In this document: positions 12,633 through 19,370 of the stretch, one piece after another
Layout: each line of letters begins with the position of its first letter
How positions within the stretch are numbered: the stretch's first letter is position 1
NCBI GenBank assembly: GCA_945873085.1
Contig: CAMCCR010000008.1
Span: 1-36,905 of the forward strand
DNA: 36,905 nt
Direction: 5' to 3'
Origin: Candidatus Kuenenia stuttgartensis
GTDB lineage: Bacteria > Planctomycetota > Planctomycetia > Pirellulales > UBA1268
Position numbers and translations under genes: made by a program
Notes under the pieces: model-generated
What the model was told of the DNA's origin: nothing
The model's database searches: none
The model's input: the letters and a program-made list of their open reading frames with translations, nothing else

Positions 12633-14620
12633 TTGGCACAGGCGTGGTTTCGGCTGCCCATGGCATCAGCCGTCGATGGTTGGCCGTGGTGATCCTGGCA
12701 ACGCTCGCGACGGCGCTTGTGACCGCCGTGCCCAGGAGCCGAGCGGATGACGCGCTGCCGACGGCTGCCGTCGTGAAGTCGCTGCTCGATGGCGTGCGCG
12801 AGGACCTCGATGCGGAACGCCCCGGGGCCGCCCGCGACCGGTTCGTGAAGGCGATCGACGCGCTCTCGACGCTTGTCGGCGCGGAGCCACCGCCGGCAGC
12901 GGCCCGTGGATTGCTCGACCGCGCCCGGACGCTGCGCGACGATCTCGAGCTTCAGGGAGTCGAAGTCGATGCCATCGTGCTCCCCACGCTGCCAAGGGCG
13001 GCGGCCAAGCCGAAGGGGGAGTCCGCGGCGAAGCCGGGCAAGGGGCCGGTCGGGACTGCGAGGAAGGGGGGCAGCGGCAAGCCCACCGGACCGGGGGTCA
13101 AGGGCCCGGCCTCGACCGCCGTGAGCTTCGTCGAGCAGGTCGCCCCGATCCTCGTGCGCCATTGCGGGGGATGTCATGTTGCCGGCAGGCGGGGAGATTT
13201 CCAGTTCACCTCCTACGACACGCTCATGAAGACCGGGATGGTGCAGAAGGGGGCCGGGGCGGACAGCCGCCTCGTCGAGGTGATCCGCACCGGCGACATG
13301 CCGCGCGGCGGCGGCAAGGTGTCGCCCGACGAGTGCGCTCTGCTGGTCACGTGGATCAACGAGGGAGCGGTGTTCGATGGCGCCGATCCGTTGGTGTCTT
13401 TGCAGAATCCGGGGGCCACTGCCGCGGCGTCTGCATCCCCATCCGGGCCTGAGAAACTCGAGCCGGGGGACGTGTCGTTTGCCTTTGAGGTCGCTCCGGT
13501 GCTCGTCAAACAGTGCGGTGGCTGCCACGACGCGATGCAGCCCGACGGCAATCTCTCCATGGTGTCGCTTGAGTCCCTGCTCCGTGGGGGCGCCAACGGG
13601 GCGCCGATCGTCGCCGGCGAAGGAGCCGCGAGCCTGCTGGTGAGAAAGCTCAAGGGCCGCGACATCGACGGGCAGCCGATGCCGCTCGGGAAGCCCCCGC
13701 TCAGCGCGGAGGTGATCGCGACGATCGAGAAGTGGGTCGACCAGGGGGGGAAGCTCGATCTTCTCACCGCCCAGACGCCGCTTGCGACCGTGGCTTCCGC
13801 CGGCCGGGCCCGGAGCCTCTCCCATGCCGATCTCCTCGTGGCCCGCTTCGAGGCCACGGACGAGGTGTGGCGGCGGGCGATCGCCGACGAGGAACCGCTG
13901 GTCGTCACCCGTGGCGATCTCCGCCTCGTGGGCAACGTCTCCGAAGCCCGGCTCGAGAGCCTCGCTGACCTCGCTGAAAAGGCGATGGAGGAGGTTGCCG
14001 AGACCCTCGGCACGACCGGTGGCCCATTGGTGAAGGGAGGGATCGTCCTGATGGTCTTCGACAAGCCCTACGACTACTCCGACTTCTGGGTCAATGTTCT
14101 CGGTGACGAACGCCCCAAGGGGCTCACCGGGAAGGCGGGGGTGAACGGCGACGTGGTCTACGGGGCTCTCGTCGCCCCGGCTGTCGATTCAGCCACCGAT
14201 CGGGCCGATGCGATGGCGGCGATCGCCGAGGAACTCGCCGCCGCGGCATTTCTGGCCCGTGGCACGCCCGACTGGTTCGCGGCCGGGGCCGGCCGCGCGG
14301 TGGCCTTGAAGGTGGCGGCGAAGTCGACGCTCGCCAAGGAGTGGCGCAGTCAGGCCGGCGAACGGCTCCATCGCATGCGGCGCCCCGCGGTGGTGGTCGA
14401 GGGGATGGGCGGGCCAGCGGATGATGCCACGGTGGGCGGGGCCTTCCTCGCAGCCGCTTCGGGGAGCGGAAGCCGCCTCAAGGCAGTCCTCAGCGAACTC
14501 GATGCCGAGGCCCCTTTCGAGGCAGCCTTTGCCAAGGCGTTCCAGGGATCACCCCCGGCGGTCTTCGAGGCGTGGCTGGCTCGGGAGGGGAAGAAGCGGG
14601 GCGGAAACGCGGGGCGATGA
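12629..14620 (+). CDS. Planctomycete-type cytochrome with two CXXCH sites and a degenerate peptidase-like C-terminus
   Basis: The 663-residue product has an N-terminal signal (hydrophobic core about 17-33, then VPRSRADD). An Ala/Lys/Gly-rich linker precedes two cytochrome domains, with CGGCH at 179-183 and CGGCH at 296-300. Each is followed by a GG-DM/MP-type distal region (GDMPRGGGKVSPDE and QPMPLGKPPLS), as in the planctomycete cytochrome C family (PSCyt1-like, PF07635). The C-terminal 250 residues resemble the layout of the peptidase MA-like (gluzincin) family, ending in GTPDWFAAGAGRAVA, but where HEXXH should be the sequence is AEELAAAAF. The metal site is thus missing and the domain probably binds rather than cuts; this comparison is an inference. 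It likely works in the periplasm in electron transfer or binding of a ligand. Confidence 0.9.
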   Translation: MIGTGVVSAAHGISRRWLAVVILATLATALVTAVPRSRADDALPTAAVVKSLLDGVREDLDAERPGAARDRFVKAIDALSTLVGAEPPPAAARGLLDRARTLRDDLELQGVEVDAIVLPTLPRAAAKPKGESAAKPGKGPVGTARKGGSGKPTGPGVKGPASTAVSFVEQVAPILVRHCGGCHVAGRRGDFQFTSYDTLMKTGMVQKGAGADSRLVEVIRTGDMPRGGGKVSPDECALLVTWINEGAVFDGADPLVSLQNPGATAAASASPSGPEKLEPGDVSFAFEVAPVLVKQCGGCHDAMQPDGNLSMVSLESLLRGGANGAPIVAGEGAASLLVRKLKGRDIDGQPMPLGKPPLSAEVIATIEKWVDQGGKLDLLTAQTPLATVASAGRARSLSHADLLVARFEATDEVWRRAIADEEPLVVTRGDLRLVGNVSEARLESLADLAEKAMEEVAETLGTTGGPLVKGGIVLMVFDKPYDYSDFWVNVLGDERPKGLTGKAGVNGDVVYGALVAPAVDSATDRADAMAAIAEELAAAAFLARGTPDWFAAGAGRAVALKVAAKSTLAKEWRSQAGERLHRMRRPAVVVEGMGGPADDATVGGAFLAAASGSGSRLKAVLSELDAEAPFEAAFAKAFQGSPPAVFEAWLAREGKKRGGNAGR

Positions 14621-14988
14621 GTTTTCCACCGCAATGCCGTGGTGTCTGGGATGCGGAGAGCTCGTTGATAAAAACGAGGGGGCCTTGGACCCCGGGGCGG
14701 GAGATCCGGGCGACCGACGGAAATCCGTCAGCCTCCGGCATGGCCTGCGGCCGGGACAATTCATCAGCCCCCAACGAGCCTCGGTAAGAGCTCACCGGCA
14801 TGGTGTGACAGCAGCACGAACATGGCAGAAAACCCATCGCCCCAAGTTTTCGAAGAGGTTTTCGAAGAGGTTTCCGAAAAAGTTTTCGAAAAGTCTTCGA
14901 CAAGCTTCCGCGGAGGTTTCCGCGGTCGATCCCCTGGAGTGCCCCGGAGCCTGAGCCCGCGGGTGCTTCGATATCATACACGTTGGCG
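14621..14988. other. Intergenic region between convergent genes
   Basis: This 368-base stretch lies between the stops of the cytochrome gene (plus) and the DUF4912 gene (minus). It holds a small hairpin (ctcgtt...aacgag near 14666-14684) without a clear T-tract and, at its right, the 12-bp tandem repeat. A possible 80-codon plus-strand frame begins at ATG 14822 and would run into the antisense of the DUF4912 gene; nothing else suggests it is a gene. Confidence 0.5.
14845..14934. repeat. 12-bp tandem repeat with TTCGAA core
   Basis: Four clear copies of a 12-bp unit, consensus rgttttcgaaga, run from 14845 to 14892 and then decay into related units up to about 14934. The core ttcgaa is a palindrome. 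The period is a multiple of three, so the array is open in several frames: plus reading gives VFEE repeats and minus reading gives FENL repeats. Confidence 0.85.
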
Positions 14989-16098
14989 TCAGGCGTCGGC
15001 CACGTCACGGCCGACCGCTTCCATCGTTTTCGTGTTGCGTTCGACCGCGATCACGACGGTTTGACGTTCCACACCGTTGGCATTGCTGGCGATGATGGGG
15101 AGCACCTGACGCTTGTTGGGGAGGTCGACGCGGACGCGGAAGGTGCCGTCGGGGCCGACTTTGACCGGTTCCCCCTGAAGGGTCACGTAGGCGCCGGGCT
15201 GCGTGGCACCGTAGACGATCATCTCGGCATCGACCTCAATCTGGAAATCGCTCGACTCTTCCGGGTCAAACTCCCCGTCGACCGTCGACGATCGCTGCGC
15301 CGGAGGGCCAATCGGCCTGCGCAGCTTCTCTTCGAAGAGTTCCTGAAGATCGGTGCTCGAGTGCTCGGTAGAATAGCCGCCACTCATGGCGTAAATCTTC
15401 TCGCAGTCGGCGGCGATGTCCCCCCAGTGGGTATCGAGGGTGTCGGCCTGCGAATTGGCCGGGACGGTTACGGCGTTGGAGCGAGCCAGGGCCTGAAACT
15501 TCCCGTGGGGCGCCTGATAGCCAATTTCGAGGCGACATCGCATCGGCTCCCGGACATCGACGAACCAGTTCTTCACGCCGCCATGGATCTCGATCGATCG
15601 GACGACGCGTTCGGACGGCGAGGCCTGGAGGGCGTTTTCGAGTTGGAGAACGCGGAGCATGGGGCGGGCAGCGTGCCACTCCTGACCGAGGGCGGCCTGG
15701 GCGCGGACAATGCTCGCGGAGGTGATCTCCCAGAACGCATGGAGCCAATGGGGCCCGCGCACCATGACGACGATCCGATCACGCATCGACGCAGCCGCAC
15801 GGCCGTTTTCCGGCCTCGTGGCGAGCAGTTTGGCCTTGGCGATCCGTTCCCGGGCCTCCTGAATCCGCAGCGCTACAGCTTCGTCCCGGGCCGGAGCGGC
15901 TTCGGCGGCTGCCGGTCGCGCCGGGGCGACCTTGGGACGCATCGCCGCAGCGGGAACCGGTTGCCGAGCCCGGGCTTTTCGCACCAAGGCCTGGATCAAC
16001 TGATCCTTGCGCATCGCGTGCCAACCGGCCACACCATGCTGCTTGGCCAGGCGGGCCAGATCACGAACCGGCTTTTGCTTCAGACTCGCGGCTGTCAC
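14989..16098 (-). CDS. DUF4912 domain protein with Rho-N/SAP-like N-terminus
   Basis: From the GTG at 16098 the product has 369 residues. An in-frame ATG at 16173 would add 25 residues, but the protein-like sequence begins at VTAASLKQKPVRDLA and GGGGA lies six bases before the GTG. Residues 10-42 look like a Rho N-terminal/SAP helix pair (DLARLAKQHGV, then RKDQLIQALVRKA), which usually binds nucleic acid. A Pro/Ala linker and a short coiled stretch follow. Residues 105-215 carry the DUF4912 signature (RIVVMVRGPHWLHAFWEI). The C-terminal third is beta-rich, with an acidic FDPEESSD and a YVTLQGEPVKVGPDG segment resembling an immunoglobulin-like strand pattern. The function of DUF4912 is unknown. 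It follows the TPR/alpha-CTD gene on the same strand after 174 bases. Confidence 0.88.
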   Translation of the reverse strand: MTAASLKQKPVRDLARLAKQHGVAGWHAMRKDQLIQALVRKARARQPVPAAAMRPKVAPARPAAAEAAPARDEAVALRIQEARERIAKAKLLATRPENGRAAASMRDRIVVMVRGPHWLHAFWEITSASIVRAQAALGQEWHAARPMLRVLQLENALQASPSERVVRSIEIHGGVKNWFVDVREPMRCRLEIGYQAPHGKFQALARSNAVTVPANSQADTLDTHWGDIAADCEKIYAMSGGYSTEHSSTDLQELFEEKLRRPIGPPAQRSSTVDGEFDPEESSDFQIEVDAEMIVYGATQPGAYVTLQGEPVKVGPDGTFRVRVDLPNKRQVLPIIASNANGVERQTVVIAVERNTKTMEAVGRDVADA

Positions 16099-16272
16099 GG
16101 ATAATCCCCGGGAAAAGGTCGATGCCCAACCTCTCCACGGTACCGACGACGGCAGGCGGACGCAAACTAACATCCCCCCAAAAGGGGAGTTTTGTGAGGG
16201 AATCGGCCACGAGAACGGCCTCCCTCAAGGCCTCGCCGCAGCGGACAGCATGGCCCGACAGAGGCTTGAAGC

Positions 16273-17616
16273 TCAGTCGCCGCGGAGCTTCAGGCCCCGT
16301 TCGGAAAGCTTTTCCCGGACCTCGTTGAGGCTCGTGACGCCAAAATTCTTGCATTCCATGAGATCTTCGGCAGTCCGGCGAATGAGCTCGCCAATGGTGC
16401 CGATCCCGAGCTTCGTGGTGCACTTCCTGGCCCGAACCGAGAGTGAAAGATCGGTGATCGGCAGGGAGTGCACTTCGGAATCGTCCGCCGACGGGGCTTC
16501 CGGTTCGTAGGCGGGCTCCTCGGTGGCCGACGCCGCAGCCATCTGGCCGAGGGTCAGCCCCTTCGTGGCGAGCATCTCCTTGATCTCGACGAGGCTCGTC
16601 TCGCCGAAGTTCTTGCTCTCCAGGATCTCCGCCTCGGTCGTCCGGGCAAGGTCACCGAGCGTTTGGATGCCCATCTTCTGGAGGCAGTTGCGACTTCGCA
16701 CCGAGAGTTCGAAGTCGCTGACCGGGAGGGCGAGGACATGATCGAGACGATCGCGCTGCTTTTGGTCCTGATCGTCGAGCTGCAAGTTGCCCGATGCGGA
16801 GGAATCTTTGAGGAACAGGCGGGCTCGGGGGTGGTCGGGAAAAACTTGGAGGATCCGCTTGTAGCACTGCTGGGCATTGACGAACTCGTCGCGATCCTCG
16901 TAGAGGATGCCGAGATTCATGAGGACCCCAACCGACGCCGGATAGCGCTGCACGGCCCGCTCGTAGCAGGCCTTGGCCTCGTCATCATTGCCGACACGGT
17001 CGTTGATGACCCCCATCGCGAACAGCGCGGCGGGATGTCCCGGATCGAGGGCGAGAGCCTTCTCAAGGGCCGCCATTGTGTCAGCCAGCGGGAGGCCGAG
17101 GTCAGCGGCAATCGTGGCCTTCTCGGCCCAGAAATCAGCGGAGGCTTCGGCGCCAGTGCCGAGCTTTGACAGCGAACTTTCGGCGTCTTTCGAGTCGCCG
17201 GCAAGACGCTTGGCCTCGGAGACTCCCACGCCGCAGGCGATGCCGTCGTAGCCCCCCTTGTGGGCTGCAGCAAAGGCCTCAGTGGCCCGACTGAGGAGGT
17301 CGGAGGAATGATCCCCGGCCATCGACAGAGCGAGGAGCGAACGAGCCTGGTAGTAGTGGGCCACCGCTCCACCGTCGGCCGACTTGAGCGTCTGGATCGC
17401 ATCCTTCCAGCGGCCGAGGAGATACTGCCCCACGCCGAGACGAACGCTCGACGCTGGGCTGCGCTCCCCCTGCCCGTCGAGTTCCTTGACCGCCGCGCGG
17501 AGATCTCGATGAGTGGCCGGATCGCTGCCGAGCAGTCCGATCACACCAGCGATCTCGGTCGGACCGAAGGAACCGGTGCCGGTAAACAGATCGCGGACGT
17601 CGACGGTAGCGGGCAT
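16273..17616 (-). CDS. TPR protein with two RNA polymerase alpha C-terminal domains
   Basis: This 447-residue protein starts at ATG 17616, seven bases after AAAGG. Residues 60-265 form tetratricopeptide-like helical repeats (for example KALALDPGHPAALFAMGVINDRVG and NLGILYEDRDEFVNAQQCYKR). Residues 295-358 and 384-447 are two alpha-CTD folds, each with the helix-hairpin-helix pattern. Against E. coli RpoA, domain 1 keeps the DNA-binding Arg265 and Asn268 equivalents (R307, N310) in VRSRNC. Domain 2 keeps the Arg (R395) but has Lys398 for Asn in VRARKC. Both have KNFG(E/V)TSL at the second hairpin. There is no alpha N-terminal domain, so it cannot replace RpoA. It probably binds DNA or transcription factors, with the TPRs as protein docking sites; this is inference. 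It follows tRNA-Thr by 29 bases. Confidence 0.93.
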   Translation of the reverse strand: MPATVDVRDLFTGTGSFGPTEIAGVIGLLGSDPATHRDLRAAVKELDGQGERSPASSVRLGVGQYLLGRWKDAIQTLKSADGGAVAHYYQARSLLALSMAGDHSSDLLSRATEAFAAAHKGGYDGIACGVGVSEAKRLAGDSKDAESSLSKLGTGAEASADFWAEKATIAADLGLPLADTMAALEKALALDPGHPAALFAMGVINDRVGNDDEAKACYERAVQRYPASVGVLMNLGILYEDRDEFVNAQQCYKRILQVFPDHPRARLFLKDSSASGNLQLDDQDQKQRDRLDHVLALPVSDFELSVRSRNCLQKMGIQTLGDLARTTEAEILESKNFGETSLVEIKEMLATKGLTLGQMAAASATEEPAYEPEAPSADDSEVHSLPITDLSLSVRARKCTTKLGIGTIGELIRRTAEDLMECKNFGVTSLNEVREKLSERGLKLRGD

Positions 17617-17645
17617 GTCAGCCTTTCAGCGAAAGAAGGGAATAA

Positions 17646-17719
17646 AGCCAGCGGCGGGAGTCGAACCCGCAACCCCCGCATTACGAATGCGGTGCTCTGC
17701 CAATTGAAGCTACGCTGGC
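17646..17719 (-). tRNA. tRNA-Thr (anticodon CGT)
   Basis: Read on the minus strand, the 74-base sequence folds as a cloverleaf: acceptor stem GCCAGCG with CGCTGGC, D arm GCTTCAATTGGCAGAGC, anticodon stem CCGCA/TGCGG with loop TTCGTAA (anticodon CGT, reading ACG), and T arm GCGGG-TTCGACT-CCCGC. CCA is not encoded. It has its own upstream promoter and leads straight into the TPR/alpha-CTD gene without a terminator that I can see. Confidence 0.96.
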
Positions 17720-17755
17720 CTGTGGTCGTGCTGGGCGACTGCTGCGGACGATCGC

Positions 17756-17894: not shown

Positions 17895-17940
17895 GGGTCG
17901 TCCGGGAAAATGGCTTTCCCCCGACTCTTCAGACCGGTGA

Positions 17941-18150
17941 AAAGAAAAAAGGTGGGGCCTCCGACCCGGCAGGAGCATCCTGCCATGGGAGTGCGGGTCA
18001 GGGGCAAGGCGACCGCACGCCCGGAGTAAGCCAGAGGCCCCACCTTACGAGTGGGTTTGCCGAGCGGTGGGAGCCGCCCGACACCGTCCCTGAGGTGCAG
18101 ATGCCGTGCCAAAGGCCGCGAAGGCCTGCGACGGCTGATGTCGGGCGGCT
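17941..18150 (-). ncRNA. Candidate structured noncoding RNA ending in a U-tract
   Basis: Two folded domains lie side by side. The left one has a perfect 13-bp closing stem (17950-17962 with 18035-18047) enclosing a 7-bp hairpin with a GCA loop (17969-17985) and a second hairpin (17992-18000 with 18012-18019, one bulge). The right one has a 12-bp stem (18072-18083 with 18139-18150), a 4-base bulge, a 5-bp stem (18084-18088 with 18130-18134) and an inner aggcc/ggcct hairpin. Only the minus strand has a T-tract after the closing stem (TTTTTTCTTTTC), which gives the likely strand and 3' end. I see no RNase P, tmRNA or SRP RNA signature, and no coding sequence fits the region. The 5' end is not defined; weaker pairings continue to about 18327. 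Confidence 0.5.
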
Positions 18151-18411
18151 GGACGTGGGGCAAAACTTTGGCTGGAAGCTCGATTTTCGGCTGTGAAAAC
18201 CAGCGGCGGGCGGGGCCTCAAGACGTGCTCGTCTGGCTCGGGGGCGGAGGCGGCGGCCAACCACCGCTGCTCCTCGAGCGCTGCATTCCGATACGGTCTG
18301 TCGCAGAATGCGGCGCGCAAAACCGTACGAGGGCGTCGATCCGGACGTGTCCCCGGGGGGGCGGATCGAGCGTTCCGTCGCGGAACATCCCCTGCCGCCG
18401 GATCGCTCGTG

Positions 18412-18439: not shown

Positions 18440-18521
18440 GCCCAAGCCGTCGCCTTCCCCGGCTCCTGTCGCGCCGTCATGAAGGCGTTTTTCCCCGCCC
18501 GCGACGTTGTCGGAGCCGCCT

Positions 18522-19370
18522 GTGATCCCCCGTCTCCCCGCTCATGTCGGGCCTCATCGGTGCGGTCCGGGCGAGCCTCTCCTGGTGATCGCGGGGCCAT
18601 GCGTCATGGAGCGCGAGAGCTTGTGCCTCCAGGTCGCGGAGTCCCTCGCCGCGATCGCCGCAAGCTTGCCGATCCGCTGCGTCTTCAAAGCGTCTTTCGA
18701 CAAGGCCAACCGCACCAGCGCCGGGGCGTTCCGCGGCCCCGGTCTCGACGAAGGGCTCGCGATCCTCGACAAGGTGCGGGCCGCCACGGGGCTCCCGGTG
18801 ACCACCGACATGCATCTCCCCGATCAGGGGGCTGCGATCGGTGCAGTCTGTGACCTGATCCAGATTCCGGCGTTCCTCTGCCGTCAGACCGATCTCCTCC
18901 TCGCCGCAGCCGCCACGGGGAAGACGGTGAATGTGAAGAAGGGGCAGTTCGTCGCCCCCGGCGACATGAAGCATGCCGTCGCGAAACTGCTCGCAGGCGG
19001 TTGCCAAGACATCATGCTCTGCGAGCGGGGCACGTTCTTCGGCTACGGGCGTCTGGTCAACGACTTCACCGGCCTCCCGGTGATGCGAAGCTTCGGCGTG
19101 CCGGTGATTTTTGATGCCACCCATTCCGTCCAGCAACCGGCGAGCCTGGGGGACGCCACCGGGGGGGATCGAACGCTCGTCGAGCCGCTCGCCCGGGCAG
19201 CCGTCGCCGTGGGGGTGGATGGCCTGTTCCTCGAAACCCACCCCGACCCAGATTCAAGCCCCAGCGACGGCCCGAACATGGTGCCGCTCGATCGGCTTCG
19301 GGGGGTGCTCGAGAGGGTGTTGCGAATCCATGAAGCCCGCTTGGCCGGTGAGCGGGAGGTCGGCGCATGA
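18522..19370 (+). CDS. kdsA: 3-deoxy-8-phosphooctulonate synthase
   Basis: KdsA condenses phosphoenolpyruvate with arabinose 5-phosphate to give Kdo 8-phosphate, the first committed step to the lipopolysaccharide sugar Kdo, in the cytoplasm. The product has 282 residues from GTG 18522, which has GGAG six bases upstream; TTG 18507 is an in-frame alternative. Signatures are [56 protein letters not shown] and [10 protein letters not shown]. The Cys in GPCVME (residue 27) matches the metal ligand of the metal-dependent class (Aquifex type); the metal-independent E. coli enzyme has Asn there. The length is normal for the family. It implies an outer membrane with Kdo-containing glycolipid. Its stop overlaps the next gene by four bases. 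Confidence 0.97.

Follow-up and report, generated by a model that had tools for sequence, protein, structure and literature searches.

Small RNAs (sRNAs) controlled by sigma-54 are known from Proteobacteria. One of them is GlmY of the Enterobacteriaceae, a free-standing sRNA with a sigma-54 promoter that is served by the enhancer-binding response regulator QseF/GlrR, and which is tied to the supply of cell-envelope precursors (PMC7073468). Qrr1 of the Vibrionaceae likewise depends on sigma-54, with enhancer-binding proteins as its activators (PMC10162802), while CrcZ and CrcY, found in Pseudomonas and Azotobacter, are sRNAs driven by RpoN and CbrB (PMC6292655). For the PVC group as a whole a review counts only 8 sRNAs (PMC9029176), small RNAs go unmentioned in a survey of sigma-54 regulons whose coverage extends to the Planctomycetia (PMC12316311), and the open-licence papers searched yielded no planctomycete regulatory RNA of this kind. 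One planctomycete candidate has been described, namely the Rhodopirellula-1 motif of Weinberg 2010 (PMC2864571), which carries no Rfam accession in that paper's table; its entry there calls it ambiguous as an RNA, gives its role as probably cis-regulatory and places it in both Proteobacteria and Planctomycetes.

The window considered here (that is, the whole stretch of 36,905 nucleotides of DNA that was analysed) quite probably contains a single-copy, free-standing sRNA gene of the Pirellulales, which would be activated through sigma-54 and an enhancer-binding protein, would terminate its own transcription, and would most likely act in trans through the loop of one of its hairpins, P2. The kind, a sigma-54-driven sRNA, is already known; it is membership of a named family that fails, as judged by Rfam. 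The likeness to GlmY lies in the predicted sigma-54 promoter, the free-standing gene and the fact that the Pirellulales RNA adjoins an envelope gene, kdsA, whereas the differences are that it belongs to a different phylum and has no match in sequence or structure to any Rfam family. Sigma-54 dependence, predicted in the present case, is also what it shares with Qrr1, but its fold is different, it again has no Rfam match, and its locus has no quorum-sensing context. The same want of an Rfam match separates it from CrcZ and CrcY; CrcZ is in addition the longer RNA, and its repeated A-rich decoy motifs have no counterpart here. As to Rhodopirellula-1, the likeness is that of a planctomycete candidate motif, but its table description (PMC2864571) is at variance with the Pirellulales RNA, which is strongly supported as an RNA, has a predicted promoter and terminator of its own, and is found in one planctomycete order. 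If the proposed reading is correct, the control of sRNAs by sigma-54 would extend to another phylum, and since there are a covariance model for the whole order, a predicted start, a fixed locus and a sigma factor that can be named, expression and function are open to direct test in cultured members.

The first-pass annotation of this region had proposed a stable, terminated, minus-strand RNA of unknown family, extending over positions 17941-18150, in which stems of 13 and 12 bp enclose nested hairpins. The RNA itself has turned out to be strongly supported, both by the lack of any Rfam family and by covariation, a test which that annotation had itself put forward, but its limits and layout had been misdrawn: the two stems do not make up a single RNA domain, and the conserved unit is instead the core listed in Table 1, which comprises only the 13-bp stem (P1) and the hairpins nested within it (P2 and P3). 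Both stems do exist in the sequence, the 13-bp stem being perfect and the 12-bp stem pairing 18139-18150 with 18072-18083, and it is also correct that a U-tract follows the closing stem on the minus strand only (as a T-run from 17950 to 17940). This tract is retained, again on one strand only, in nearly all relatives, and nearly all members have an intrinsic terminator, made up of P1 and the U-tract, at the 3' end of the RNA.

Table 1 Positions of the RNA, its predicted control elements and its immediate neighbours in the window.
Feature	Position	Strand	Basis
kdsA, divergent neighbour	18507..19370	+	NF003543 380.7 bits, TIGR01362 353.2 bits
Imperfect inverted repeat, candidate enhancer (UAS) site	18278..18316	.	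upstream of promoter
Predicted sigma-54 promoter TTGGCACGGCATCTGCA (GG-N10-GC, -24/-12)	18096..18112	-	score 17.5 of 18.5
Predicted full transcript, ~146 nt	17939..18085	-	predicted sigma-54 start, end within U-tract, inferred
Predicted 5' hairpin P0 (GUCGGGCGG-CUCCCA-CCGCUCGGC)	18059..18082	-	folds at predicted 5' end
Conserved RNA core (P1 closing stem + P2 + P3)	17945..18048	-	covariance-model match and covariation
P1 5' arm	18034..18046	-	pairs with 17949-17961, perfect 13-bp stem
P2 hairpin	17987..18022	-	double changes in 9/9 pairs
C-rich P2 loop GCCUUGCCCCUGA	17998..18010	-	nearly invariant through order
P3 hairpin GGCAGGA-UGC-UCCUGCC	17968..17984	-	double changes in 7/7 pairs over order
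P1 3' arm then U-tract, intrinsic terminator	17940..17961	-	sequence
tRNA-Thr(CGU), downstream of RNA	17645..17720	-	ARAGORN and Rfam

A search of the window with the covariance models of Rfam 15 at gathering score returns tRNA-Thr alone, the same search of 20 distant member loci returns only tRNA, and accepting E-values up to 10 adds nothing but noise in the gap that holds the RNA. No family beyond the neighbouring tRNA is matched, and the RNA is new to Rfam 15. Compared with dinucleotide shuffles, the minus-strand segment folds with a z-score of -5.05 (0 of 200 shuffles being as good), while for the plus strand the effect is weaker (z -3.0). The predicted fold of the core is a three-way junction.

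Evidence for this fold also comes from compensatory changes, which are seen in each of three nested sets of members. The 34 members from the family to which the window belongs align easily, and from their alignment (A1) RNAalifold derives helices of 17 bp (P1), 9 bp (P2) and 7 bp (P3); both sides have changed in 16 of these 33 pairs, and 98.3% of cells pair, a level that none of 500 shuffles matches and that compares with 36-54% for slid controls. When 62 members from across the order are taken, covariation becomes massive, with double changes in 30 of the 33 pairs, 95.9% of cells paired (reached by 0 of 500 shuffles) and a covariation score of 0.538 (shuffles 0.199, slid controls no higher than 0.098); within P1 the corresponding figures are 14 of 17 pairs and 98.4% of cells. 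In contrast, the 12-bp stem is not conserved. It should be said that fitting to the structure of the first covariance model (R1) biases alignments A2 and A4 towards it, but A1, which was made by MAFFT alone, gives the same fold. Judged from sequence, the RNA, its predicted fold, its strand, its terminator and its order-wide conservation are all well supported.

The distribution of the RNA was followed at several depths. A DNA search with the minus strand across 59 genomes gives a clear match to some 105 nt, the 3' half, in 34 of the family's 36 genomes, covering all 12 of its genera, the remaining two genomes showing only trivial short matches. R1, which in a search of the whole genome scores the core at 122 bits (E 2.4e-23), detects the RNA in 190 of the 397 order genomes searched, and its matches in a sample of the phylum are confined to genomes of that same order, which is read as Pirellulales. 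A second model, R2, built from 62 members, raises this to 234 of the 397 genomes and 107 of 145 genera, with one match per genome, and all of its 87 matches in a class-wide sample lie within the order. These figures refer to a sample of one genome per species, and E-values from such home-made models are rough. Even among near-complete genomes of the order R2 matches 159 of 253 and finds nothing in roughly 37%; in these the RNA has either been lost or become too diverged for the model. Matches of the DNA pattern in Myxococcus, Streptomyces, Microbacterium, Spongiactinospora and Calditenuis were set aside as chance, none of them having a covariance-model match.

This order-wide conservation had no place in the first-pass annotation, and neither did the conserved gene neighbourhood or the sigma-54 promoter. 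For the latter, the 140 nt upstream of the RNA were scored against the sigma-54 consensus at 74 loci, 68 of which reach at least 15 of a possible 18.5, as compared with 3.1% of dinucleotide shuffles; the pattern TTGGCAC-N5-TGCA recurs in the upstream sequences of relatives. The predicted sigma-54 promoter is strongly supported by these motif statistics. The cellular machinery appears to be in place, in that rpoN was found in all six genomes tested and each of four genomes gave between 11 and 24 matches to enhancer-binding ATPase domains, the lowest-scoring of which are probably distant AAA proteins.

If the start is taken to lie 12 nt beyond the -12 element's GC, it falls at about 18085, where RNA polymerase with sigma-54 would initiate on the minus strand, to stop near 17940 at the RNA's own intrinsic terminator. 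The predicted transcript folds at -83.4 kcal/mol (z -5.76). Its leader, too, is apparently structured: over 72 leaders, each taken from the predicted start to P1, the mean folding energy is -14.5 kcal/mol, as against -9.3 kcal/mol for shuffles, and in most members the foot of the 5' hairpin lies close to the predicted start. The architecture would then be P0 followed by P1 enclosing P2 and P3, about 146 nt in all, P1 being a closing stem that would double as terminator and the other three being hairpins. The outer 12-bp stem, in contrast, was rejected as part of the RNA. Its 5' arm lies 26 nt upstream of the promoter, outside the predicted transcript, and so should be absent from it, while its 3' arm participates in P0; moreover, the complementarity is complete only in this genome, the two nearest relatives having 9 and 7 bp of it and others mostly 4-6 bp.

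Upstream of the promoter there are palindromes that are candidate binding sites for an enhancer-binding protein, although that in the window is by itself not above chance, its score of 9 equalling the best of the shuffles (9, 7, 6, 8). Strong palindromes are found at the equivalent place in relatives (for instance at loci L029, L033, L113 and L121). Among 40 distant loci, 26 have GTCTCA-N3-TGAGAC at 11 or more of 16 (41 sites, where 3.1 would be expected) and 10 have it at 13 or more (0.0 expected), often 200-240 nt upstream of the promoter; within the window's own family some members have this same sequence at -126 to -183, others having different long palindromes. An enhancer-binding protein bound 100-240 bp upstream would probably activate the gene, so that the RNA would be made in response to a signal rather than constantly. 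A palindrome search of 12 genomes for a wider regulon revealed none that was recognisable, the genes beside the other sites (reverse-transcriptase-like, oxidoreductase-like, TPR and others) sharing no theme.

How such an RNA might act is suggested mainly by the P2 loop, which is nearly invariant while the stems around it drift, and so bears the mark of a contact site. Within the 34 family members GCCCCUGA is invariant, and among 41 members from other families most have UUGCCCCUGR and four have GCCCUU. Most likely the RNA would act in trans through this loop, probably by pairing with G-rich stretches such as the ribosome-binding sites of mRNAs, and we infer an enhancer-binding protein, a signal, action in trans and a set of targets as parts of this scheme. 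Exact 11-nt complements of the loop are no commoner than background, lie mostly inside coding sequence and include no shared target; exact 9-nt complements located before ATG yield about 15 loose candidates, with no gene shared between genomes apart from a weakly similar pair of zinc-ribbon proteins of one family. Any pairing may be weaker, shorter or split. The excess of 9-nt complements over the reversed pattern probably reflects coding composition together with a palindromic repeat in one genome of the order (G051). A repeat family of that genome, CAGGGGCAATTCATG, is present in many copies (e.g. at G051:C1, 364172-364186) and is possibly palindromic.

The most serious competitor is that the RNA acts by binding a protein, whether as a decoy or in an RNA-protein particle (compare GlmY with RapZ, or CrcZ with Hfq-Crc), so that the invariant loop would be a protein site. 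This we consider possible but rather unlikely. It would account for a loop that hardly changes across the order while the stems vary freely, it is in keeping with the empty searches for conserved antisense targets, and it has a precedent in GlmY, a sigma-54 sRNA that sequesters RapZ (PMC7073468); however, a single-copy locus and a C-rich loop fit a pairing sRNA equally well, and pairing is somewhat favoured as the commoner mechanism. A related and bolder proposal, which must be rated as unlikely, is that the RNA is a founder riboregulator of the whole order, fixed beside kdsA since the order's origin and acting through its invariant loop by something other than ordinary antisense pairing. If true, it might for instance be a protein decoy through which cell-envelope synthesis is linked to a signal from nitrogen/carbon or from the envelope.

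That the RNA is a housekeeping RNA (6S, SRP, RNase P or tmRNA) too diverged for Rfam seems very improbable. Its size and single copy would fit, and 6S RNA (RF00013) exceeds the cut-off in none of nine order genomes searched. However, RF00013 has no match at the RNA locus, SRP RNA (RF00169) is located elsewhere in all nine (e.g. at G000:C329), the predicted three-way junction is unlike the long hairpin with central bubble of 6S RNA, the predicted sigma-54 control is atypical of these RNAs, and no member locus searched (the window and 20 distant ones) matches any such family at gathering score, the window giving only noise at E-values up to 10. On the matter of 6S RNA, locus L149 of a family member has a sub-threshold match (G014:C18:24689-24887, minus strand; 35.7 bits, the cut-off being 46.4) some 3 kb downstream of the RNA; nothing comparable is seen at 14000-15200 of the window, and the order may harbour a diverged 6S RNA. 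A role as CsrA sponge was also considered, but hairpins with GGA loops are, by eye, not retained in distant members.

A cis-acting leader or attenuator for the tRNA-Thr or for the TPR gene beyond it can be given just as little credence. The idea arises naturally from the gene order of the family, which runs from divergent kdsA (both of its NCBIfam equivalogs, NF003543 and TIGR01362, exceed their cut-offs) through the RNA and tRNA-Thr(CGU), found at the equivalent place in nearly all family members, to genes for a TPR/alpha-CTD protein and a DUF4912/Rho_N protein, with the RNA, tRNA and TPR gene on the same strand and in constant order. Against it, termination is built into the closing stem, with no alternative antiterminator retained, and RNA and tRNA may lie as little as about 195 nt or over 900 nt apart. 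At 41 loci from other families kdsA is present and divergent in 33 and tRNA-Thr(CGU) follows in 11; most distant loci lack this tRNA in the fetched flank and yet have the RNA. The TPR protein (16273-17616, minus strand) is a fusion with two RNA-polymerase alpha C-terminal domains, whose gene is in this family always beside the tRNA-Thr and the RNA, while the DUF4912 protein with its Rho_N domain lies at 14989-16173 on the minus strand, in conserved gene order.

Finally, that there is no RNA at all, merely an inverted repeat at the DNA level or a stretch that happens to fold and ends in a terminator, is scarcely credible: the plus strand does also fold better than chance, but 30 of 33 pairs have changed on both sides, a single-stranded loop is conserved, the U-tract is strand-specific, and so is the predicted promoter, which keeps a constant place; all this speaks for RNA. 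A coding origin of the conservation was likewise rejected, with no open frame reported in the matches and the changes being compensatory within pairs.

Two minor observations concern individual members. Several metagenome-assembled genomes titled Candidatus Kuenenia stuttgartiensis (those of loci L044, L055, L056, L059, L060, L067 and L068) carry both the RNA and its locus; they are evidently members of the order that has the RNA, and their titles look wrong. At locus L263 (G052:C210, near 16400) there is an open frame beginning MEPQKGRVFLSLDIGSNSVGSGW, a sequence that resembles the N-terminal end of a Cas9/RuvC-type protein.
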